DNA from: Candidatus Bipolaricaulota bacterium | GTDB taxonomy: Bacteria; Bipolaricaulota; Bipolaricaulia; RBG-16-55-9; DRXL01 | DNA: 64,000 nucleotides | Assembly: GCA_025060395.1 (NCBI GenBank) | Contig: JANXCC010000001.1 | Location: forward strand, 186,276 to 250,275 | Direction: 5' to 3' | In this document: positions 45,875-64,000 of the stretch, in pieces | How the letters are laid out: each line of letters opens with the position of its first letter | Numbering within the stretch: position 1 is the first letter of the stretch | Position numbers and translations under genes: made by a program | Notes under the pieces: generated by a model | What the model was told of the DNA's origin: nothing | The model's database searches: none | Seen by the model: only the letters and a program-made list of their open reading frames with translations

Positions 45875-47158
45875 TTACTTGGCAGGCTGAGGTTGGGCCC
45901 GCAGCGCCGCCAGCTCCGCCTGGCGCGCGTAATCTATTGCTTCAGCCAATATCCGTGCGGCTTCTTGGGGGCTGTGAAACCCCATGCTGTTCTCAGCAGC
46001 GATGAAGTCCCAGCGCATCTGCGCCCTTCTCTGCAGCATTCGCGCTTCTTGGAGGGCTTCGTCACTGGCCCCGGCTTCTTTTGCCGCTTTGATCGCATCA
46101 ATCGCTGCGATGAGCGCCTCTTCGGCGCGCACCATCAGAGCATACGTTCGGTCTTGAATTCTCTCGATGCGCGCGCGCAGCTCTTGCTCCGAAGCCCGAT
46201 GACACGTCATGCACGAGCCAGCGATATTCAGCAAGGGGCTGCGCACCCAGTGATCGCTGATCTTAATAGCCCCCTCGCGCTTGTAGGGCATGTGACAGTC
46301 GGCGCATGAGACCCCCGCTTGGTAGTGAATCCCTGTGGTGAACAGCTCAAATTCCGGATGTTGCATCTTGAGTATCGGCGCGCCCGTCTCGGCGTGCACA
46401 AAATCTCTGAAGCCGTATTCGTCGTAGAACTTCTCGATGTCATCTACAGTAAAGCCCTTGTCCCACGGGAAGACGAGATATTTCCCCTCGCCGCGGAAGT
46501 AATACTCGACGTGGCACTGGGCGCAGACGAACGTGCGCATCTCCTGTCGGGTCGCCTGGGAGATATCTATGCCCCGGCGTTGCATCGCTTCTAAGAACGC
46601 TGGGCGCGAAATTCTCAGATTCATTGTTTTCGAATCGTGACAGTCTACACACGAGACGCCGTGCTGGGCTTTCGCGGCCCATTCGGCAAAGGGCGTCGCG
46701 TAGAACTGTGCGGGGCTGCCGGCTTCTTCTAAGAACTGCGAGACGTTGCCGCTCTTACACGTCATGCACGTGCCGGCTTTGGGTTCGCGCTTGGTCTCCT
46801 TGACATCAACCAAAGACCACCAGTGGCCACGCTCTTCTTTATAGTCTATGGAGAAGGGATTTCCCGCAAAGAGTCGCCTGAGTCTTGGGTTCTCGTCTGT
46901 TTTTTGATAGGGCACTGAGCCACCGTACTTGGTGCGCTCGGTGGATTCACGAGTGCGCAGATACCCTGCGTATTGTCTGGGCCAATTCTGGCCCCACACC
47001 GCCGGGTCGGGTTCGGTCTTGGCGATCTCGATCAAGCGACGGGTGGCTTCTTCGGCTTCACGCTTGCGCTCCATGATATTCACCAACAGAGCCGTCACCC
47101 CGGCTGTGACGCCGACGATCACCACGAAGAGCACCGCCCACAGTATGGTACGTCTCAT
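45875..47158 (-). CDS. nrfA: Cytochrome c nitrite reductase (ammonia-forming), catalytic subunit
   Basis: 427-aa pentahaem enzyme reducing nitrite to ammonia outside the cytoplasmic membrane. It has an uncleaved or signal N-terminal helix (about residues 5-28). The active-site haem uses the diagnostic CMTCK (131-135); the four others use CVDCH (170), CAQCH (212), CADCH (285) and CMTCH (316). CHVEYYFRG and TTGIHYQAGVSC carry the expected Tyr and His of the active site. It follows nrfH by 29 nt. Confidence 0.97.
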   Translation of the reverse strand: MRRTILWAVLFVVIVGVTAGVTALLVNIMERKREAEEATRRLIEIAKTEPDPAVWGQNWPRQYAGYLRTRESTERTKYGGSVPYQKTDENPRLRRLFAGNPFSIDYKEERGHWWSLVDVKETKREPKAGTCMTCKSGNVSQFLEEAGSPAQFYATPFAEWAAKAQHGVSCVDCHDSKTMNLRISRPAFLEAMQRRGIDISQATRQEMRTFVCAQCHVEYYFRGEGKYLVFPWDKGFTVDDIEKFYDEYGFRDFVHAETGAPILKMQHPEFELFTTGIHYQAGVSCADCHMPYKREGAIKISDHWVRSPLLNIAGSCMTCHRASEQELRARIERIQDRTYALMVRAEEALIAAIDAIKAAKEAGASDEALQEARMLQRRAQMRWDFIAAENSMGFHSPQEAARILAEAIDYARQAELAALRAQPQPAK

Positions 47159-47187
47159 TGCTCCCTCCTCACTGAGCTTTTACTATC

Positions 47188-47634
47188 TCATGGCCCATGT
47201 CCCACCCCGCGATGGCACGCAAAGCACGCCCGATCAGAGTTCGCATCGTGGACGATCTCGCTCACGATCAGGCTATGGCACTCTATGCAGTTTGCTTGCA
47301 GAATCTTATGATTGACCTCGCTGATACGAATCGGCTCCGGAAAATTTTGCAGCGTGAACGCGACGGCGTGATGGAAGCCGTTGCGCGCCTTGGAGAGCCA
47401 TTTGCTGAAAAAATCGTGTGGGACGTGACAGGCGTTGCAGGTTGCCACAGCTTGATGGCTGGAGCGCGACCACGAGTTATAGACGTCGTTCATGATATGA
47501 CAGTTGACGCACGCCTTTGGATCGTCGGAGAAGTACGAGCTTCCACGCGCATAGATGAAGGTGAAGACCCCTAAGCCCAGTAAAATTGCTAGAGCCGCGA
47601 ACACTGCGATCTTCAGCCCGACCCACAGGCGCAC
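47188..47634 (-). CDS. nrfH: Tetrahaem quinol dehydrogenase NrfH (NapC/NirT family)
   Basis: 148-aa membrane-anchored cytochrome that passes electrons from the quinol pool to NrfA. One N-terminal TM helix (LKIAVFAALAILLGLGVFTF) is followed by four haem sites CVNCH, CNACH, CIECH and CFACH. GTG start at 47634 with GAGG 7 nt upstream. NrfHA gives a respiratory or electron-sink use of nitrite, notable in a Wood-Ljungdahl organism. Confidence 0.94.
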   Translation of the reverse strand: MRLWVGLKIAVFAALAILLGLGVFTFIYARGSSYFSDDPKACVNCHIMNDVYNSWSRSSHQAVATCNACHVPHDFFSKWLSKARNGFHHAVAFTLQNFPEPIRISEVNHKILQANCIECHSLIVSEIVHDANSDRACFACHRGVGHGP

Positions 47635-50044: not shown

Positions 50045-50620
50045 ATGTTCACGCCAAAGCGGGAAGGGATGGGCATGACCCGCGCTCCGGGGTGTGGCAA
50101 GGACTGCTTGCTGGAGGGGCTAGCATCCGACAAGCTCCCGCCATCTGAACTCTATGATGACCCTGAAGAGTTCCTGAATCCCAAGAACGGGCTCTTTGCG
50201 ATCTGCCGTGGGGGGCTGGTCTGTGAGTGGGGATCTGGGCCGGAGCACACATGCTTAGAGATTCTCGGGTTTGGGGATCGATTCGGAACGGTAAAGCTCG
50301 ATGATAAAGAGCTTAAACTGACCCCTCCTGCTGGTGCTAACGATATCTTAATAGTTGCTAGAGCAGAGTGGGTCATAAAAGAAGCATGGTGGACTCAAAA
50401 CGGCCAAAAGCTTTGCGACAAGCAGATAGAAGGCCTTACCGGCCAAAGATTTAAGTCCATCCATGCTGGAGTGACTAAGGAGGCAAAGGTACAAGTTACG
50501 ATTACGGTCGTCCCCACTCTCACTGAGTGGAGCTTGATTGCGCTGGCGGTGCTGCTGGCCGGGGGCATGGGCTATATGCTCTACCGCCGCCGCCCGGCCC
50601 TGTGCCCCGCCGCGCCCTAG
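50045..50620 (+). CDS. IPTL-CTERM protein, probable exosortase substrate
   Basis: 191 aa. The C-terminus has the tripartite sorting signal of the IPTL-CTERM class: VPTLTEWS, a TM helix (LIALAVLLAGGMGYMLY) and a basic end RRRP. The body (residues about 15-150) contains several cysteines (CGKDC, CRGGLVC, HTC, KLC). No signal peptide is visible at ATG 50045, so the true start may lie upstream in damaged sequence or this is an N-terminally truncated substrate. It lies 180 bp before an exosortase-H-like gene, the expected processing enzyme. The region upstream of it is shared with the divergent rarA promoter. Confidence 0.72.
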   Translation: MFTPKREGMGMTRAPGCGKDCLLEGLASDKLPPSELYDDPEEFLNPKNGLFAICRGGLVCEWGSGPEHTCLEILGFGDRFGTVKLDDKELKLTPPAGANDILIVARAEWVIKEAWWTQNGQKLCDKQIEGLTGQRFKSIHAGVTKEAKVQVTITVVPTLTEWSLIALAVLLAGGMGYMLYRRRPALCPAAP

Positions 50621-50651
50621 GACGGATCGGCTTACAGACCCTTGCACAGAC

Positions 50652-50680
50652 AAGCCCCCGCTCGCGGCAGGCGGGGGCTT
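50652..50680 (+). terminator. Hairpin after the IPTL-CTERM gene
   Basis: AAGCCCCCGC (50652-50661) pairs with GCGGGGGCTT (50671-50680), 10 bp with a 9-nt loop; the following T-tract is weak (CTCCATC). Confidence 0.62.
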
Positions 50681-50688
50681 CTCCATCG

Positions 50689-50778
50689 AATCACGGAACG
50701 CACGGAAGGGAACAGAGGACATGGAAGATAGCTTTCATTGAGTGTTTTCTGTGCTTCTCTGCGCCTTCCGTGACTCAA
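50689..50778. repeat. CACGGAA-type imperfect palindromic repeat
   Basis: The left arm (TCACGGAACGCACGGAAGGG) and right arm (TTCTCTGCGCCTTCCGTGA) are imperfect reverse complements. Related pieces lie at 24938-24974 (in tsaC), 44094-44110 and 48573-48612 (3' end of rarA). Confidence 0.65.
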
Positions 50779-50800
50779 ACGTCCACATAAAGGAGGTCTC

Positions 50801-51427
50801 ATGGCGCGCAAAAAGCACAAGCACGCGCACAAAGAGCATCCAGCTTTAGAGAAGAAGCTCGATGCACTCGTGACGTCTGCCGTGACGCGCGTGCAAGATT
50901 TCTGGCAGCGCAATAAGCTCATCATCCGCGCGTGGACGGTCTTCGCTCTTGTGATTGGAGCTTTCACGACGCTCTTGTTCTTCTTAAATCTCTACACGGG
51001 CTTTGAAGCCTGGCTCAATTGCATCACGGCTCTCATGCTCGCTGGGGCACTCTGGCTTTTGGGCGCTAATGGCCAAGCCGTGGGCACCGTCGTCACGTCG
51101 AAGATCTTCTCGGCCGAGATCATCACCGAGTGCACCGCGATCTTCCCCTTGATGATCTTCTTGGCGGCTGTCATTGCGTATCCATCGGGCTGGCGCAAGA
51201 AGCTCTGGGGGATTGTGCTGGGCGCGCCGGCGATTCTCCTTCGTCAATATCATTCGGCTGGTGACGCTGTTTTATATTGGCTATTGGTTCCCCAGCGTCT
51301 TCGAGACGGCGCACTTGTTAGTGTGGCAGTCGCTTATTATCTTCTTCGGTGGAGCTGGTTGTGCATCGTGGGCAGGTACGTCATGCGTGAGCTGGGGTGT
51401 ATCTCTACTCTGGGCTGCGGCCATTAA
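50801..51427 (+). CDS. xrtH: Exosortase-H-like transpeptidase, reading frame disturbed
   Basis: Multi-TM cysteine protease/transpeptidase expected to cleave IPTL-CTERM proteins. The main frame gives a basic N-terminus, TM helices and the catalytic-type Cys in IITECTAIFPLMIFLAAVIA (Cys111), then WRKKLWGIVLGAPAILL to about 51241. The expected continuation VNIIRLVTLFYIGYWFPSVF and ETAHLLVWQSLIIFFG, carrying the Arg and His of the triad, is in the +1 frame (51240-51350); the original frame then resumes sense-like WSWLCIVGRYVMREL to the stop. Two compensating indels, natural or from sequencing, explain this. GGAGG lies 7 nt before ATG. Confidence 0.7.
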   Translation: MARKKHKHAHKEHPALEKKLDALVTSAVTRVQDFWQRNKLIIRAWTVFALVIGAFTTLLFFLNLYTGFEAWLNCITALMLAGALWLLGANGQAVGTVVTSKIFSAEIITECTAIFPLMIFLAAVIAYPSGWRKKLWGIVLGAPAILLRQYHSAGDAVLYWLLVPQRLRDGALVSVAVAYYLLRWSWLCIVGRYVMRELGCISTLGCGH

Positions 51428-51506
51428 CCGTTGCCGTCTATTATCTGATGCCGCGGCTGCTAGTGGGTTTTATAGTTACCAAGCAAGCAAAGTGAGGTAC
51501 TCCTTC

Positions 51507-52052
51507 ATGAGACTGAGCGCGCGGAGGCTCGTAGTATTCGGTGCACAGTTCCTCATCTTCTTCGTGGCTTTTCTGCTTTTCTACCCTGTATTATTGCCTA
51601 TATATAATGGCCTGGCGCTCAGCTTGGCCAACGTAGTCCTCGCTCACTATTCGCCGCCACTGTATGTCCAAACTACTGCTGATCATAGCTGGATGATCTA
51701 TCGTTTGCCCGAGAAACGCCCACTATTCACCTTGGAGGGGAGTTATCTCAGCTTGATCTATCTCAACCTTGCCCTGCTGCCGGCATTGATACTGGCTACT
51801 CCCCTACCATCTCAGCAACGCTTGAAACTACTAGGCTGGGGAATGGCTGCACTGCTAGGGGTACATGCGCTCTCCGCCATCGCGCTCACTCGCGCTGAGA
51901 TTTGTGTTCATTATGATCCAGGCAACATGGGGTGTAACGTAGTAGAAGGCATATTCGGTACAGGGGGCCAGCTCTTCGCTGTGGCCTTATGGGCCGTGCT
52001 GACGTGGCGCGTGTGGCTTCCCATGAAGGCCCTCAAGAGAGGAATACCATGA
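51507..52052 (+). CDS. Exosortase-locus membrane protein A
   Basis: 181 aa. An N-terminal TM (VVFGAQFLIFFVAFLLFYPV) with PIYNGLALSLANVVL, a periplasmic beta segment, then three further hydrophobic helices and a C-terminal TWRVWLP motif. GTGAGG lies about 9 nt before ATG 51507. It shows the same plan as the next three genes: N-terminal TM, aromatic/Asn turn, about 40-residue extracytoplasmic part, two or three TMs, and a W-R-x-W-L-P end in the first two. It ends in an ATGA overlap with gene B. Possibly an exosortase-H-associated membrane protein; function unknown. Confidence 0.72.
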   Translation: MRLSARRLVVFGAQFLIFFVAFLLFYPVLLPIYNGLALSLANVVLAHYSPPLYVQTTADHSWMIYRLPEKRPLFTLEGSYLSLIYLNLALLPALILATPLPSQQRLKLLGWGMAALLGVHALSAIALTRAEICVHYDPGNMGCNVVEGIFGTGGQLFAVALWAVLTWRVWLPMKALKRGIP

Positions 52053-52585
52053 CTGCTAGCCGCATCTTGCTGCTAATAATAGGGGTTCTCATCTTAATAG
52101 GGTGGAACGTGGCAGTATGGCCTTACGTAGTGAATAGCTATGCCCAGCTTCTCGTATCTATTCTTCAGCCCCTAGTTAGCGATGAGACACAACTTCAGGT
52201 CACAACACACGAGGTTATCGTTTATGATCACAAGGGCACACCAATAGTACAAAAAAGCCTCGATAGCATGAACGAGTTCGGCTTACTCCTTGCTCTATTC
52301 CTCGCCGTTCCCCTCATGCCGTTTTCTCAACGTATGCAACGTCTGCTATTGGCTTTAGGCATCCAAATTGCTTTGCATATTGTGGAACTGAGCCTTTTGA
52401 TCTGGATCGCCTATGAGTTTTACTTCGGAATTAACAAACAAAGCTTTGCTTATTGGCTTCTTAACCTTCTTATGGCTGGGAATCTCATCTTCCCAATCCT
52501 ACTCTGGGCTCTACTCAGTTGGCGCTTCTGGCTCCCCAAGCTTGCCCCACAGCCCCACCAAAAACCCAAGGAGGCCCGCCCATGA
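52049..52585 (+). CDS. Exosortase-locus membrane protein B
   Basis: 178 aa. N-terminal TM (ILLLIIGVLILIGWNVAVWP) followed by YVVNSYAQLLVSILQPLVSD, an extracytoplasmic part with TTHEVIVYDHKGTP, then TMs (LLLALFLAVPLMPF, QIALHIVELSLLIWIAYEFY, AGNLIFPILLWALLSW) and the C-terminal SWRFWLP. The plan matches protein A. The start overlaps gene A's stop (ATGA) with AGAGAGGAA upstream; its own stop overlaps gene C (ATGA). No known family recognised from sequence alone. Confidence 0.75.
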   Translation: MTASRILLLIIGVLILIGWNVAVWPYVVNSYAQLLVSILQPLVSDETQLQVTTHEVIVYDHKGTPIVQKSLDSMNEFGLLLALFLAVPLMPFSQRMQRLLLALGIQIALHIVELSLLIWIAYEFYFGINKQSFAYWLLNLLMAGNLIFPILLWALLSWRFWLPKLAPQPHQKPKEARP

Positions 52586-53105
52586 GATTTTCTCCACGCG
52601 CACTCCTAGCGTTCCTTGGAAGGTTCTTCACATTGCTTGTGATCTTCTCCCTGATCTGGTACTGGCTCGCGCTCTTCTATGCTGGTCTCCTGGTCAGCAT
52701 CGGCAACGGCACCCTGAACGCTCTGGGGTATCCCCCGATGCTCCAGCTGAAAAACCGCGAGATCATACTGACCATCTTTGCTCAAAAAGTGCAGGTATCA
52801 ACGGGGATCTCTTCCCTCTATGGGGTCCACTCGTGCTCGCGCTCGTATGGGCCGCGCCGGGGCTGTCGCGCGCCAAGCGCTGGCGGCTGAGCACGCTTGG
52901 GCTGATTGGCATAGCCCTCTTGCACTGGCTGAACCTGCTCGGCCAAGCGGGGATGCTGCTCGCTCCTTATGGGCTGGGAAAGCTTCTTGCTGAGCGGCTC
53001 TTCTTGCTTGGCGCCCTCGCTGATATGCTCGTGCCTACCATAGTTTGCATAAGCTTGGTCCTGCGCGGCCAGCTCATGATCAGACTCCAGGAGGTTCTAT
53101 CATGA
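52582..53105 (+). CDS. Exosortase-locus membrane protein C, with homopolymer frameshift
   Basis: The first half in one frame reads MRFSPRALLAFLGRFFTLLV and WYWLALFYAGLLVSIGNGTL to LTIFAQK; the rest continues in another frame as SAGINGDLFPLWGPLVLALV, RLSTLGLIGIALLHWLNLLG and VPTIVCISLVLRGQL. The break lies at the run of five A at 52784-52788: one extra A restores a 175-aa protein of the same plan as A and B. As written, the first frame stops at 52890. A sequencing error, phase variation or -1 ribosomal slippage are all possible. It overlaps D as ATGA. Confidence 0.65.
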
Positions 53106-53323
53106 CACGCCTCTGGCTCTTCTTCTTGATAGCAAAAGTCTTGGCGCTCGTGCTGATCTTCGCTCTGATCGCTCCGGTGATCTTGCCCTTCTACAGCGGG
53201 CTGCAGATCGGCCTGGTGCGCCCCTTCGTCAGTTCAGATCTTGCGCTACGCCTGCAACCCGATGGCAGCATCGCCGTCTATTATAAAGATGGGGATCTCT
53301 GTCCGGCAGGTTTTAAGAGATAA
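53102..53323 (+). CDS. Exosortase-locus membrane protein D, 3'-truncated
   Basis: 73 aa. N-terminal TM (LALVLIFALIAPVILPFY) followed by SGLQIGLVRPFVSSDLALRL and an extracytoplasmic segment DGSIAVYYKDGD, corresponding to the first 70 residues of proteins A-C. It then ends abruptly (LCPAGFKR) 11 nt inside the opposing rpe gene. The C-terminal TMs have been lost, probably by a deletion that brought rpe next to the array. Start overlaps gene C's stop; GGAGG lies 8 nt upstream. Confidence 0.6.
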   Translation: MTRLWLFFLIAKVLALVLIFALIAPVILPFYSGLQIGLVRPFVSSDLALRLQPDGSIAVYYKDGDLCPAGFKR

Positions 53324-53963
53324 CAAGAGCGCGCAGTTGAGCAAGCGCTGTTCTGGGGTCTTTGTCTCCGAAGATCGCGCTGGCGGTTACTATAATATCT
53401 GCTCCGGCCCGCGCGATCTCTTTGATATTGTGGGCGTTCACGCCCCCGTCGACCTCAACCTCGACACTCAGCCCCTTCTTGTGAATGAGCTCCTTAGCGT
53501 GGCGAATCTTGTCCAGGGTCTCGACGAGAAAACTCTGGCCGGCAAACCCCGGCTCCACACTCATTATGAGCAAAAAATCTATCTGATCTAAGAGCCTCTC
53601 GATGGCGCTTAAGGGCGTCTTGGGGCGCAGTGCAATCCCCGCCCGCGCGCCCGTTGAGCGAACCGTCTCGATCACGCGGATGGGATCGGATACGGCTTCT
53701 ACGTGAAACGAGATGAGATCGCCAGGACGGACTTTGAACTGCGGCGCGTACTGCTGCGGGTCAGTGATCATCAAGTGAATATCGAAGGGGACAGAAACTC
53801 TGTCGCGCAGCGCGTTGACGACCACAGGCCCAAACGTTAAGTTGGGCACGAAGTGCCCGTCCATCACGTCCCAGTGTAAATAGTCTGCAAAAGGGGAGAC
53901 TGCTTGAGCCTCCTCAAGCAGTCTCCCAAAATCCGCAGCCAACAGCGAAGGGGCAAACTTCAT
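53313..53963 (-). CDS. rpe: Ribulose-phosphate 3-epimerase
   Basis: 216-aa TIM-barrel epimerase of the pentose phosphate pathway. FAPSLLAADFGRLLEE, YLHWDVMDGHFVPNLTFG, DIHLMITDPQQY, MSVEPGFAGQSF and VEVDGGVNAHNI motifs, including the metal-binding His and Asp residues, are all present. Its start overlaps the upstream zinc peptidase stop (ATGA). The 3' end overlaps the truncated membrane protein D by 11 nt. Confidence 0.97.
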   Translation of the reverse strand: MKFAPSLLAADFGRLLEEAQAVSPFADYLHWDVMDGHFVPNLTFGPVVVNALRDRVSVPFDIHLMITDPQQYAPQFKVRPGDLISFHVEAVSDPIRVIETVRSTGARAGIALRPKTPLSAIERLLDQIDFLLIMSVEPGFAGQSFLVETLDKIRHAKELIHKKGLSVEVEVDGGVNAHNIKEIARAGADIIVTASAIFGDKDPRTALAQLRALVIS

Positions 53964-55502: not shown

Positions 55503-55569
55503 CTCAGTTGGACAGAGCAGCGGTTTCCTAAACCGCAGGTCGTGCGTTCAAATCGCACCGGGCGCACCA
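55493..55569 (+). tRNA. tRNA-Arg (anticodon CCT)
   Basis: 77 nt with encoded CCA. Acceptor GCGCCCG/CGGGCGC, anticodon arm GCGGT-TTCCTAA-ACCGC giving CCT, T arm with TTCAAAT. Its first 10 nt overlap the 3' end of rnc. No own promoter was seen, so it is probably made from the tRNA-Gln/rnc transcript. Confidence 0.97.
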
Positions 55570-55595
55570 GACTACATCTAAACACTTTTAAACCG

Positions 55596-57014
55596 ATGGC
55601 AAGCTCTTGGCACATGCTCGATCTGGGTCGGCTGCGCTTGCATGGCGTGGCCGTCCTTGCTAGCCTAGTCTTGCTAGGCGGGTTGCTCTTACCCTGGATT
55701 AACTTTGTACAGCTCGTCTTTAAATATAGAATACTGACGGGTGTATTCTTTGTGTTGGCTTTGCTTGTCCTGGAGCTGTCGGGATACTTTCTCCTCCGCG
55801 CGGTGCGGGAGCGTCCGGTGACTCTGGGGGAAGCGCTCATCCCGCTTTTCTATAGTGCTTCTGGAGTACTCAGCTTTATCTTCGGGTATTTTTTTATTGT
55901 GCCCATCAATCCCGTCGCGACCATCTATTTGATCGGGGCAGCGGGATTGGCTGGGGGCTCGCTCTTCTTCTGGCCTCAAAGCCCACAGATCCGAGCCCTC
56001 CTTACTGGAAGGTCTCTTCGCTATAGCGCTGTGAGCGCGGGGGTACTGACGCTGCTAGCTGGAGCCTGGCTCGTCTCTTCAGGATGGGCCCAACGTCCCA
56101 TCAGCATAAATCCTCCAATCGCTGAGTTTGTCGTCCTGTCACAAACGATACAGGTCGGCGAACCTATCGATTTCGACGCAAGCGCTTCGCGGGCTCGTCA
56201 GGGTAAAGTCGTCAGCTATGAGTGGGACTTTGGCGATGGGACTTGGTACGCCGCCCGCGACGGCACCCACGTCACCCATGTCTATGTCGAGCCCGGTCAG
56301 TACGAAGTGACGCTAAGAGTCACCGACGAGCGCGGGGAAGTGAGCCCAGCGTACAGGCTCTTCATCACAGTGCAGGGCGAATCGGGCTTTGAGACCATGA
56401 CGACGTTTCCTCACGAGATCTCAGGGATGGCCTGGGATGGCTCTCAGCTATGGGTTGTTCATGGGAAAGGGCTCTACTCTTCTCTAGGGTCGACCTGGAA
56501 GTATCATGCCTTTCCTGAAGAGATCGAATGGCCTGGAGGGCTTGAGTGGGACGGGGAGAGCTTCTGGGTGGCCGACAGCACAACGATGGCTCTCTATCGG
56601 CTCTCCCCGGAAGAGTTTAAGATCCTTGGGCGATGGGCGTATCCTGGAACCATTCCCGCCGACTTGGCTTGGGATGGGAGCCTCCTCTGGATTATAGACG
56701 GAATAGATTCGACCCTGTACGCGCTCGATCCAAGCGATGGACGTATCGTCAAAGAGATCAAGCTCGATCCTGAGATCTTCCCTCGGCCCGTTGGGCTCGC
56801 CTGGGACGGCATCGCCCTATGGGTGGCGGATATGCATTCTGGTATCCGACGTATCCACCCAGAGGACGGGCGTGTTTTGGGCACGATGGCTGCCCCTAGG
56901 GAAGGGCAGTATCCGATAGCGTTAGCGTGGGATCACGGCCATGGACGTCTCCTCGTAGCTGACCATGAGACGAAGAGGCTCTATCAGCTCAAGGTGAGAG
57001 CCTGGGCCCCTTAA
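55596..57014 (+). CDS. Membrane protein with PKD domain and beta-propeller-like repeats
   Basis: 472 aa. N-terminal half has five or so TM helices (VAVLASLVLLGGLLLPW onward). A PKD domain follows at about residues 185-275, with EPIDFDASASRARQGKVVSY, YEWDFGDGTWY and VTLRVTDERGE. The C-terminal 200 residues have repeats of the form GLAWDG-x-LWVAD (for example DLAWDGSLLWIIDGIDSTLY), like NHL or YncE propellers; about five blades are visible. Likely a surface binding or structural protein. No ribosome-binding site; ATG 55596 or 55614. It begins 26 nt after tRNA-Arg and may be on the same transcript. Confidence 0.76.
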   Translation: MASSWHMLDLGRLRLHGVAVLASLVLLGGLLLPWINFVQLVFKYRILTGVFFVLALLVLELSGYFLLRAVRERPVTLGEALIPLFYSASGVLSFIFGYFFIVPINPVATIYLIGAAGLAGGSLFFWPQSPQIRALLTGRSLRYSAVSAGVLTLLAGAWLVSSGWAQRPISINPPIAEFVVLSQTIQVGEPIDFDASASRARQGKVVSYEWDFGDGTWYAARDGTHVTHVYVEPGQYEVTLRVTDERGEVSPAYRLFITVQGESGFETMTTFPHEISGMAWDGSQLWVVHGKGLYSSLGSTWKYHAFPEEIEWPGGLEWDGESFWVADSTTMALYRLSPEEFKILGRWAYPGTIPADLAWDGSLLWIIDGIDSTLYALDPSDGRIVKEIKLDPEIFPRPVGLAWDGIALWVADMHSGIRRIHPEDGRVLGTMAAPREGQYPIALAWDHGHGRLLVADHETKRLYQLKVRAWAP

Positions 57015-59159: not shown

Positions 59160-62100
59160 GTGTATAGCGGCGATGATATTGCGAAGATACGTATTGGGTT
59201 AGCTTCGCCTGAGGAGATCAAAAGCTGGTCCCGCGGCGAGGTCACTGAATCCGAGACGATCAACTATAGAACACACAAGCCCGAACGTGGCGGCCTCTTC
59301 GCCGAGGAGATCTTCGGGCCGGAAAACGACTACGAGTGCGCTTGTCAGAAATATCGTGGGCGCAAGTACGAGGGGATCACCTGCGAAAAATGCGGGGTGC
59401 TCGTCACGAGCTCTGAGGTGCGCCGTTCTAACATGGCCCATGTGGAACTGGCCAGCCCCGTCGTCCACTTCTGGTATCTGAAGGGCATCGCCTCCCCCTT
59501 GAGCACGCTGTTGGGGATCAAGCGCGCTACCCTGAAAAAGATCGCCTACTATGAGACTACTCCCCTCGAAGAAGAGATGTACCTGGTCACCCAGTCTGAG
59601 TCTTCAGATTTCTCTCGAGGTGATATCCTCTATGGGACACAACTTCGGATCTTAGGGGAGAAGAAGAAGTTCACTGCTGAACGCCTCTACGCCCTGGAGA
59701 CCGATTTTGAGATCAGCGCCGAGGGCGATGGGAAAGTCTCGTTTGAGAAGCTCAAGCTCGATAACGGTGAGGAGATCAAGCTTATCAAGCTCTCCAACGC
59801 AACCAAGGCATTCCCAGTGCCCCTCAGCGCGGAGATGCTCGTTCAATCGGGCACTAAGGTCGAAGTCGGCCAGGCTCTAGCCCGCCTCCCCAAAGAAGAG
59901 TACCTCACCGAGACCATGTTTAATTTCCTCAAGAGCGTCTACCCAGATCTGAAGGGGAGGAAAGTCACTGAAGTCGTCGACAGCTTAATCTACCTGGTCA
60001 CGAGCGTGAAGAACCCCAACGTCCCCTTAAAAGTTGGGGATCGCCTGTGGGAGCTCGAAAAGAAAGCCTACGAGAAACTCTACCCAGGACAGTTTGAGGC
60101 TGAGACGGGGGCCGCGGGGATCAAAGGCGTCTTAGCGAACTTAGACTTAGCTGCCCTCGAAGCTGAACTGTATCAGCAGATCGCCCAAGAGCCCACCGAA
60201 GGCCGTCGCAAGCGGCTCTTAAAGCGCTTAGAGATCGTCCAGCAAGTGCGGCGCAGCGGCAATCAGCCCCAAAATATGGTCTTAGACGTTATCCCCATCT
60301 TGCCCCCAGATCTGCGCCCCATCGTGCAATTAGAGGGCGGCAAGTTCGCTACAACTGATCTGAATGATCTCTACCGGCGTATCATCAACAGAAATAATAG
60401 ACTCAAAAAGCTCATGGAGATGGGCGCGCCAGAGATTATCTTGCGCAACGAGCGCAGAATGCTCCAAGAAGCCGTCGACGCCCTCATCCACAACGAGAAG
60501 AAAGATAACCCCATCCTGGGACGCGATAACCGTCCGTTAAAATCGCTGAGCGAGCGCATCGCCGGCAAGCACGGGCGCTTGCGCAGAAATCTCTTGGGTA
60601 AGCGCGTCGATTACTCCGGGCGCGCGGTCATCGTCGTCAACCCAACGCTCAAGCTCCACCAATGCGGCTTGCCCAAGAAGATCGCGCTCGAGATCTTCAA
60701 GCCGTTTGTGCTTGCGCGGCTGGGCGTCAGCGCCATCTCCAATTACGACGACGTCAAGAACAAGGCCCTCTCTGGCGAGATGCCCGAGGTCTGGGATATC
60801 TTAGAACAGTTAGTCAAAGAGCATCCGGTCTTGCTCAACCGCGCCCCAACGTTACACAGATTGGGGATCCAGGGGTTCGAGCCCGTCCTCGTCGATGGCG
60901 AAGCTATTCAAATCCATCCGTTTGTCTGCCGGCCGTATAACGCCGACTTCGACGGCGACATGATGGCCGTGCACTTGCCCCTCAGCAAAGAAGCCATCCA
61001 AGAGACCCGCGAGATCATGCTCTCCACGAAAAATATCCTCTCCCCCGCCAACGGGCGCCCTCTGAGCGTTCCCACCCAGGACGCGATCTTCGCCTATTAT
61101 TATCTGACTATTGTTGATGAGAACGGCCCCGGCAAGGGCAAGGCCTTTGCCAGCCTCACCGAGGCGGAGCGCGCCTACGAGGAGAAGATCATCTCGCTGC
61201 ATACACCTATTAAGATCCGCATCGACGGGAAGCTCATAGATACCACCCTAGGACGCGCTTTGCTCAATAATATCTTCCCTCCAGATCTCCGGGACTATAA
61301 TAAAGTCTTCGACTCTGACGCGATCAACGACCTCATCATGGAGTGCTACTTCCGACACGGCCTGGAGCGCACTGTCCAACTCTTGGACGACCTGAAAGAG
61401 ATCGGGTTCTCATGGGCTACAAGGTCGGGTCTGACGATCTCTGTGAGGGATTGCCTCATTCCCAACGAGAAGGACGCGATCATCAACGCGGCCCGCGAGC
61501 GCGTCGCCAGGATCAACGAGCGCTACGAGCGCGGCTTGCTCACCGATGAAGAACGCCGGAGCAAGGTCATCGAGATCTGGATGGAGACCGTCGACAAGGT
61601 CGCCGAGGCGACCATGAATAACCTCGCTCAACATCCCTTCAACCCCCTCTACATGATCGTCAACTCTGGGGCACGCGGCAGTGCTACCCAAGTCAAACAG
61701 CTCTCCGGAATGCGCGGCCCCATGAGCGATCCCTCCGGCAGAATTATCGAGATGCCCGTCATCTCCAACTTTAGAGATGGGCTCAACGTTATTGAGTACT
61801 TCATCAGCACCCACGGTGGGCGCAAAGGTACGGCCGATACCGCCCTCAAGACCGCAGACTCTGGGTATCTCACCCGGCGCCTGGTCGATGCCACCGAAGA
61901 GCTCATCGTCAAAGAAGAGGACTGCGGTACCACCGAGGGCATCGAGATCGATCCCCTCTACTTCACCAAGCCCGATGAGGTCATGGAGACGATCCCAGAG
62001 CGCATCTACGGGCGCGTGCTCGCTCAAGATCTCGTCTTCCTAGGAGAGACGCTGATGAAGCGCGGCGAGATCTTCGACCGCGAGAAGACTCAACGCTTCG

Positions 62101-64000
62101 GCAATCTCACCGTTGAGCTCTCCCCTAGCGATCCTGCCTTCTTGGACAAGGTTGTAGGCACCAAGGCTGTTGAAGATATTCGCGATCCCAAGACGAATCG
62201 CGTGATTGTCGCCCAAGATGAGCTCATTACCCGGGCGCTGGCGGAGAAGCTGCGGGCTCTCGGGATTGCAACCGTGCGAGTTCGCCCGAGAATCGTGATT
62301 CGATCTCCTATGCGCTGCACCGTGCGCCGGGGTGTTTGCCAGCTCTGTTACGGCTACGACTTGAGCACCCATCAATTAGTCAAGCTCGGCACGGCTGTAG
62401 GAATCATCGCTGCCCAGTCGATTGGCGAGCCGGGCACTCAATTAACCATGAAGACGTTCCACACGGGCGGTGTGGCCGGGATAGATATCACTCAGGGTCT
62501 CCCCCGCGCCGAAGAGCTCTTTGAGGCACGCAAGGCGGTGCGCAGCTCCCAAGGCGAGATCGCTCCCATCAGCGGCGTTGTAAGAGAGCTGAAGGAGTCG
62601 CCCGAGACTGGACGCTTACAAGCCATCCTCCACGGCGATGAGAGACATCTCCGCGTGCCCAAGGCTCTCTTTGTCCCACCAGGACAGAGCGATGCGGTTC
62701 CACTCAGCGCCCTGCTTAACGGCCGCAGCCCACGCCGCGGCTTTGTGCACATCATCGAGACTGAAAAGTTCCGCAAGCTCTATATCCTCGATGAAGACGA
62801 TGCGGTCTATACCCTCCCGGAAGGGGTCAAGCCGCTCGTGCGCGACGGTCAGAAAGTGACTAAAGGCGAGCTCCTCGCCGAACCCTTCCATGAGCCCCCG
62901 GTCATCTCAACGGTCGACGGCATAGTTGAGGAGATCATCGAGAACGATGAGCGCGCCTTGATCATCAAAGAGCGAGAGACGGGAAACCGCGTACGCTATA
63001 AGCTCCCCTACGGCGCGCGGCGCTCCGTCAACATCGGCGATAAGGTGGTCAAGGGAGAACAGCTCTCCACGGCCTCCAAGCCCATCGAGCTCCGCGCTCC
63101 TTGCGACGGTATCACCCTCGTCACCAAGAACCGGATCGTAGTCTATCAACCTCAGGAGGGCAAGGCCTTCACGCTCACCGAAGATATCGCTGTGCTCAAG
63201 AGCGACGGCGATCGGATCGAGGCCGGGGAGCCGCTGTGTAACCTGGCTCTTAGCGACGAGCTCGTCAAGATCGACGCCGTCACGTCCCTTGATTCCGAAT
63301 TGGTCGAGATCACCTACCATCAAGAAGCTACTGTGGAACTGACTAATCCGCCCGTCGTTAGACCCGGTGACAAGGTCCAGAAGGGCGACCTTCTGTCTAA
63401 GGGCGTGATTTCACCCCACAGACTCCTCAGCATTGCCGGCCCGGATAAGACAAGAATCTATCTCTTGGAAGAGATCCATAAAGTCTACAAGAGCCAAGGG
63501 GTCGACATTAACGACAAGCACATCGAGCTCGTCATCCGCCAGATGCTCAACAACGTGCGGATCGTCGATCCTGGAGACTCGCAGTTCTTACCCAATGAGC
63601 TCATCTTACTAGAAGAGTTCCAGGCGGAGACCAAGCGTCTAGTTGAGGAGAACCGTCAGATTCGGCAGCAGCGCGAAGAGCTCATCGGGGTAACGCTCGC
63701 TGCCCCGGTGACGGACAAGACCGGAGCGATCATTGCTGAGAAGGGCAGCACCGTGACGCGTGAGCTGCTTGATACGGCCCTGAGCGCCGGTGTGACTGAG
63801 CTTGTCTTAGAGCGCGGTAAGGAGAAAGTCATCCAGCGCATCGCTGAGAAGCGCTTGCCCAGCGGCGAGCGTGTCTTGCTACGCATCTCCAAGGCAGCGC
63901 TTGAGACGAAGTCCTGGCTCTCAGCGGCGTCGTTCATGCGCACCACGACGGTGCTAGCCGAAGCGGCGCTCAAAGGAGCTGTAGATAGAATTGAGAGCCT
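59160..64000 (+). CDS. rpoC: DNA-directed RNA polymerase beta' subunit, 3' end beyond window
   Basis: At least 1613 codons. GTG start with AAGGGGGG 5 nt upstream; N-terminus [20 protein letters not shown]. First zinc site [19 protein letters not shown], then [14 protein letters not shown], active-site NADFDGD at residues 594-600, [19 protein letters not shown] bridge-helix region, second zinc cysteines ([17 protein letters not shown]) and the trigger-loop segment [19 protein letters not shown]. Compared with short forms such as Bacillus it has about 150 extra residues before the active site and about 200 extra between ELFEARK (about 1119) and [15 protein letters not shown] (about 1442), plus a smaller insertion near the end. 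The final visible block [18 protein letters not shown] lies near the usual C-terminus. Confidence 0.97.

Follow-up and report, generated by a model that had tools for sequence, protein, structure and literature searches.

Many diderm bacteria use exosortases to sort their surface proteins, and we know of no function assigned to exosortase accessory proteins. Here we analyse an exosortase H (XrtH) locus in a 64,000-nt stretch of DNA (hereafter the window) from a Candidatus Bipolaricaulota bacterium (GenBank assembly GCA_025060395.1, contig JANXCC010000001.1, positions 186,276 to 250,275 of the forward strand), in which an xrtH-like gene is followed by an array of four genes, A to D, for membrane proteins. 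The closest described system is XrtH/IPTL-CTERM, represented by the families TIGR04177 and TIGR04174/PF18203 together with NF041730. With this system the locus shares the IPTL substrate, an XrtH of the Cys-Arg-His type and an accessory protein of four transmembrane (TM) segments encoded directly downstream; it differs in that here four or five accessories stand in place of one, that they score below the NF041730 cut-off, and that the exosortase of the window is broken. XrtH loci with a single partner, in other Bipolaricaulota and in Acidobacteria, Methylomirabilota and Gemmatimonadota, also carry a member of the accessory family directly 3' of XrtH, but only one, which in a few of the Bipolaricaulota has a C-terminal SEC-C motif. 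Archaeosortase A (ArtA) of Haloferax volcanii, of the same exosortase/archaeosortase superfamily, provides a model for cleavage and lipid anchoring: a tripartite C-terminal signal (PGF-CTERM; a motif, a TM segment and a basic stretch) is cut, and the protein is then anchored (PMC7157517). ArtA differs in its genetic partners, which are two lipid enzymes, PssA and PssD, and not an array of pseudo-exosortases (PMC7157517). What XrtH substrates can be is seen in the abundant surface-layer protein of Methylomirabilis lanthanidiphila, which carries a C-terminal IPTL-CTERM domain (PMC8671808), although this organism belongs to another group and a search for 'sortase' in the text of that paper gave no discussion of the sorting enzyme or its accessories.

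On balance, we favor the explanation that the window holds a decayed copy of an XrtH/IPTL-CTERM module in a form specific to the genus, the accessories of which would be non-catalytic homologues of the exosortase. Profile comparisons show that the products of A to D, and of a fifth gene E, are true paralogues and distant members of NF041730. A hidden Markov model (HMM) built from 24 single accessory proteins next to XrtH, from other Bipolaricaulota loci, detects A, B, C, D and E at 35 to 78 bits, compared with at most 18 bits for hydropathy-preserving shuffles; the unrelated multi-TM open reading frames (ORFs) of the loci gave no significance with this model. Profile-profile alignment (hhalign) of the five proteins to this solo family returned P values of 1e-10 to 4e-19, and among the array proteins themselves the pairs A-D, B-D, C-D, A-B and A-C all stood at 2e-6 or better. 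The original prediction, made from the sequence of the window alone, had taken the four proteins to be paralogous, and they do match one another as well as the exosortase-associated solo family.

The alignment of 34 family sequences reveals conservation of W26, P31, Y33, A93, L94, A97, P99, R105, H120, P158 and W162, with Y33 invariant and A93, L94, P99, R105 and H120 nearly so. The W-R-x-W-L-P ending that had been noticed in the first two proteins (WRVWLP in A and WRFWLP in B) corresponds to the last part of the conserved TM4. Matches to NF041730 ('exosortase H-associated membrane protein') were found for 14 of the 34 sequences, and the array lies directly beside xrtH. Measured against its curated cut-off of 35 bits, the single accessories of relatives score 19-23 bits; among the array members checked, only the C protein of locus L034 (C_L034) matches, at 16.1 bits. 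Pfam holds no model for the accessory proteins, and our literature search found no open paper on XrtH accessories. A SEC-C metal-binding motif (CPCGSGKKYKHCC) is present at the C-terminus, on the side of TM4, in some single accessories (L007, L015, L016 and L021).

The accessory family is probably homologous to the exosortase core, as judged from sequence profiles. A shallow comparison of the accessory and XrtH profiles gave P 3e-4 and a probability of 38%; with deeper profiles, to which out-of-phylum members had been added, the values were P 3.1e-6 and 88%, over 123 collinear columns. The corresponding score of 44.7 compares with maxima of 28.1 for 200 column-shuffled controls and 15.4 for 10 unrelated TM families. 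The subset of solo accessories alone and that of array accessories alone each match XrtH (P 6.6e-5 and 7e-6, respectively), and single accessory members weakly match heimosortase, paceosortase and XrtX. The AlphaFold2 model of accessory A (pLDDT 93) presents a long helix, a three-strand meander, a TM2 ending before P99, a long TM3 (residues 102-136) and TM4, while the model of XrtH from the same-genus genome G005 presents long helices, three short strands, a TM2 ending before P128, a long TM3 (residues 131-162) and TM4. The order of the predicted elements is alike in the two models, with the beta meander at the same place, and in both proteins the spacing from the Pro to R/K is 6 residues and from the Pro to H/N 21 residues. 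The XrtH triad (C111, R152 and H171) is invariant among 24 relatives; the accessory family is without it, having no conserved Cys and placing its H120 at the position of XrtH N149. An accessory may quite possibly be a pseudo-exosortase subunit, with a non-catalytic role.

Our sample of 100 Bipolaricaulota genomes includes 26 with XrtH and 27 with the accessory, and the two sets are identical except for G004, in which the accessory is a contig-end fragment. Outside the window genus and its sister genome G009 there is one accessory per XrtH. The same holds for four out-of-phylum loci (Acidobacteria, Methylomirabilota, Gemmatimonadota and one unassigned bin), which came from a contig pattern search with a 10-sequence XrtH alignment. 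The sister genome G009 has two accessories, and the window genus four or five: A-B-C-D in G005 and G001, and E-A-B-C-D, across two contigs, in G002. The array is thus present beside xrtH in these three same-genus relatives, and the counts bear out the expectation of the original prediction that exosortases usually have at most one accessory. Its proposal of a local duplication series of four holds as to paralogy, but the series has up to five members and is old. A phylogenetic tree places A, B, C and D in separate supported clades, each spanning several species, and since these clades are shared between species the duplications must be old; a recent local duplication was rejected, the paralogues being deep and common to several species. 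D has as its sister the single accessory from a second XrtH locus in the family (98/90), B joins those (96/95), and the placement of E, on a long branch, is unsure. The duplicates are under purifying selection, with dN/dS ratios of 0.12-0.14 for A and 0.08-0.21 for B and of 0.17-0.22 in full-length comparisons of C and D, and gene A is 84% identical to its G005 orthologue.

The second type of XrtH locus (L040, L041, L042, L038 and L039) comprises a secreted protein of ~170 aa, the exosortase and one accessory. Its secreted protein has a C-terminal TM tail of its own and no IPTL match. A locus of this type was not found in the window assembly.

The layout of the locus is given in Table 1. As had been predicted, four consecutive membrane-protein genes follow the exosortase-H-like gene, with an ATGA overlap at each of their three junctions; on its far side the locus is bounded by rpe, which lies on the opposite strand.

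Table 1. Features of the XrtH locus in the window, with the evidence for each
Feature	Window position	Strand	Description and basis
Fused ORF, 191 aa	50045..50620	+	N-terminal part of a Crp-like regulator (HTH gone) with an IPTL-CTERM sorting tail
Short interspersed repeat TTCCGTGAYTC	50688..50776	.	Inverted pair between the IPTL ORF and xrtH; DNA motif search
xrtH (exosortase H), broken	50801..51390	+	TIGR04177 pieces; tblastn against G005; DNA alignment
Accessory gene E, remnant	51383..51495	+	Start codon and C-terminus left after an out-of-frame deletion of ~490 nt
Accessory gene A, 181 aa, 4 TM	51507..52052	+	Intact; family HMM 62.5 bits
Accessory gene B, 178 aa, 4 TM	52049..52585	+	Intact, ATGA-coupled to A; family HMM 64.8 bits
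Accessory gene C, frameshifted	52582..53105	+	Two tblastn pieces in different frames
Accessory gene D, 73 aa, truncated/fused	53102..53323	+	Both D and the beta-helix gene are complete in G001 and G005

The window xrtH is a broken member of the exosortase H family. The original prediction of an exosortase-H-like gene was right as to the sequence, which matches TIGR04177, but there is no single reading frame: the match falls into two pieces in different frames, of 46.1 and 29.4 bits, below the curated cut-off of 86 bits. The same-genus genomes G001, G002 and G005 pass this cut-off, each with an intact XrtH of 203 aa. In the window, the first frame (50801-51238) ends at an additional nucleotide at ~51239, the second (51240-51347) at a 23-nt deletion (51347/51349), and the third covers 51349-51390; by tblastn these pieces are 84%, 97% and 85% identical to the intact XrtH of G005. 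The first frame carries the catalytic Cys and the second the Arg and His, so that the triad is split by the +1 indel. Programmed frameshifting was considered and rejected: in the relatives a single frame is open throughout, and the window shows the +1 together with the 23-nt deletion in place of a slippery site. A third apparent frameshift in xrtH, at first taken for an error, is the C-terminus of the gutted gene E.

Lesions are seen in the rest of the cluster as well. Gene E is intact in G002 (L033:9898-10518), and residues 171-190 of its product match window 51400-51459 at 70%. Gene C is without one base at 52826/52827, which is present in an otherwise near-identical stretch of G004 (L053). 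Gene D breaks off after ~62 residues and runs on into the final codons (GDLCPAGFKR) of a beta-helix gene that is otherwise deleted here and comes after D in relatives; the fusion junction is identical in the separate bin G004. The ORF that had been predicted to encode an IPTL-CTERM protein does end in such a tail, with the IPTL motif, a TM segment and a basic stretch, above the cut-offs of both PF18203 (31.2 bits) and TIGR04174 (26.8 bits), but the tail is fused to a Crp-like fragment, to which the Crp-like gene of L034 matches over 50093-50389 (34%, E 1e-9, tblastn). This ORF has a Crp-like start, with no signal peptide seen by sequence and hydropathy without a dedicated predictor, whereas the relatives start with a TM-type leader (MRTIKVLAIIGLAVAL...) and keep the HTH_Crp_2 regulator and the secreted IPTL proteins in genes of their own. 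Six lesions thus fall within the 3.3 kb of the locus, compared with none in ~14 kb of flanks on both sides, in which 11 genes, and also a 1,613-residue stretch of the gene at 59160-63998, align to their G005 orthologues as unbroken single frames. With the enzyme, C, D, E and the substrate damaged, the window locus is a decayed copy and the module is probably non-functional; as a decayed remnant, it would by itself form no working complex. Other genomes have lesions of their own, a one-base deletion in D in G002 and the loss of the N-terminal half of A in G009, which argues that the array erodes repeatedly. Purifying selection is still visible in the residual xrtH codons and in A and B (dN/dS 0.12-0.21 in most comparisons), and the loss therefore appears to be recent.

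The passenger domains of the substrates encoded beside the array (VWA and others) are unrelated to one another, and the signal peptides and tails around them are near-constant. Comparison of the IPTL substrate genes of G002, G005 and G009 gives DNA identities of 93-94% over the first 69 nt and 94-95% over the last 93 nt; these ends are more conserved than the neighboring genes, in which the synonymous divergence is ~0.7-1 (G002 vs G005, and D in G005 vs G009). The IPTL tail of the window is 94% identical to that of G009, and the next 40 nt downstream are 97% identical. Constant ends around unrelated passengers suggest a cassette-like exchange of passengers or gene conversion. Genes with such ends are found at L032:3945-4460, L033:6434-6928, L034:7892-8389 and L035 134-709 (reverse complement), and the window counterpart is at 50501-50660.

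The intact order, seen in G005 and G001, is a Crp-like regulator, one or more IPTL substrates, XrtH, A-B-C-D and a secreted beta-helix protein, with E leading A in G002. By analogy with relatives such as ArtA, XrtH would cut the IPTL tail as the protein exits the Sec translocon and would move the protein to a surface anchor. An accessory may be a non-catalytic subunit packed against XrtH, where it would shape and complete the site for the substrate or for the anchor. A single subunit would have been duplicated early into four or five specialized ones, plausibly for different passengers or for a larger complex, and the four or five translationally coupled copies may share the work, either within one complex or as alternatives for each passenger. 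Our tentative view is that XrtH works with catalytically dead exosortase homologues and that in one genus this partner has multiplied into four or five different subunits, a heteromeric set surrounding one active enzyme. We infer for the array a common role in a processing complex.

The likeness between accessory and enzyme could be of another origin, if the accessories were an unrelated family of 4-TM helpers (scaffold, chaperone or lipid donor) that had converged on XrtH in membrane-helix composition. The conserved residues are mostly structural (W, P, Y and the A-L-x-x-A-T-P motif), and the first, shallower comparison did not go beyond its 38% probability, both of which would suit such helpers. 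Several results weigh directly against homology of the accessories to the exosortase core and their place in NF041730: B alone and E alone have no significant match to XrtH, the XrtH model is of medium confidence (pLDDT 76), Foldseek found no match for the accessory in PDB and BFVD or for XrtH in PDB, and the NF041730 cut-off was reached by none of the 10 proteins checked individually. A sequence-profile search of PDB with the accessory returned weak and implausible P4-ATPase matches only. Mere composition, however, is a rather unlikely source of the resemblance, as shuffles that keep the hydropathy layout stay at or below 28 of 45 score units and unrelated TM families lower still, while the deeper profiles align collinearly, XrtH is matched by the solo subset and by the array subset taken separately, and the beta meander recurs at the same place in both models. 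The accessories might also act otherwise than as subunits of a heteromeric complex: several substrate types would share one exosortase, and each accessory would be a substrate-specific receptor. The unrelated passengers carried between near-constant signal peptides and tails are in keeping with this, as is the sister relationship between D and the accessory of the second XrtH. We nevertheless find receptors doubtful, for G005 has four accessories and one recognized IPTL-CTERM protein above the cut-off, the translational coupling suggests a fixed stoichiometry, and in the near-identical tails there is little for a receptor to distinguish.

For the window itself, decay has to be weighed against error. 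The locus could be intact in this genome, with the frameshifts and fusions arising in the assembly or consensus of the metagenome bin, which is fragmented, 1.70 Mb in size and 88% complete. The +1 in xrtH and the base missing from C are single-base differences of the sort that a bad consensus could yield, which counts against decay, and G004 does have the C base; the similarity to G004 also falls abruptly after ~1 kb, which suggests strain mixing. Errors of this kind are nonetheless an improbable account of the whole. Three of the lesions are large deletions, the D fusion recurs unchanged in a separate bin, G002 and G009 have lesions of their own, and the ~14 kb of neighboring genes on both sides has no frameshift. 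Such clustering of lesions is not what a uniformly poor assembly looks like, and we retain decay of the locus as our reading. Positions 1-1060 of L053 (G004:C157) and window 52815-53875 are near-identical over ~1,060 nt between two species of the genus and then drop abruptly to 75-85%, which suggests recent recombination or strain mixing between bins.

The surroundings of the locus hold further features. Upstream, an NrfA/NrfH-like cytochrome pair of the ammonifying nitrite reductase type (window 45875-47634), recognized from sequence motifs with no family search, is intact and conserved in the genus. Also conserved in the genus, next to the locus, is a protein (window 55542-57014) with five TM segments, a PKD domain and a C-terminus resembling a beta-propeller. 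The TTCCGTGAYTC repeat is found also at window 48596, 44097 and 24938 and at G000:C22:101709-101793. Its core occurs 5 times in the window, where 0.22 copies are expected, and 9 exact cores are present in the genome assembly; the repeats sit in apparent intergenic positions, some as inverted pairs ~70-90 nt across.

For annotation, these results mean that the 'IPTL-CTERM protein' and the 'xrtH' of the window should carry a pseudogene label. The window genome displays a module that is being lost as a unit. If the accessory is an inactive exosortase, a family named for its neighborhood gains a mechanistic hypothesis that can be tested at the dimer interface, R105 and H120, and the genus with four or five copies would offer a natural experiment in pseudoenzyme specialization.

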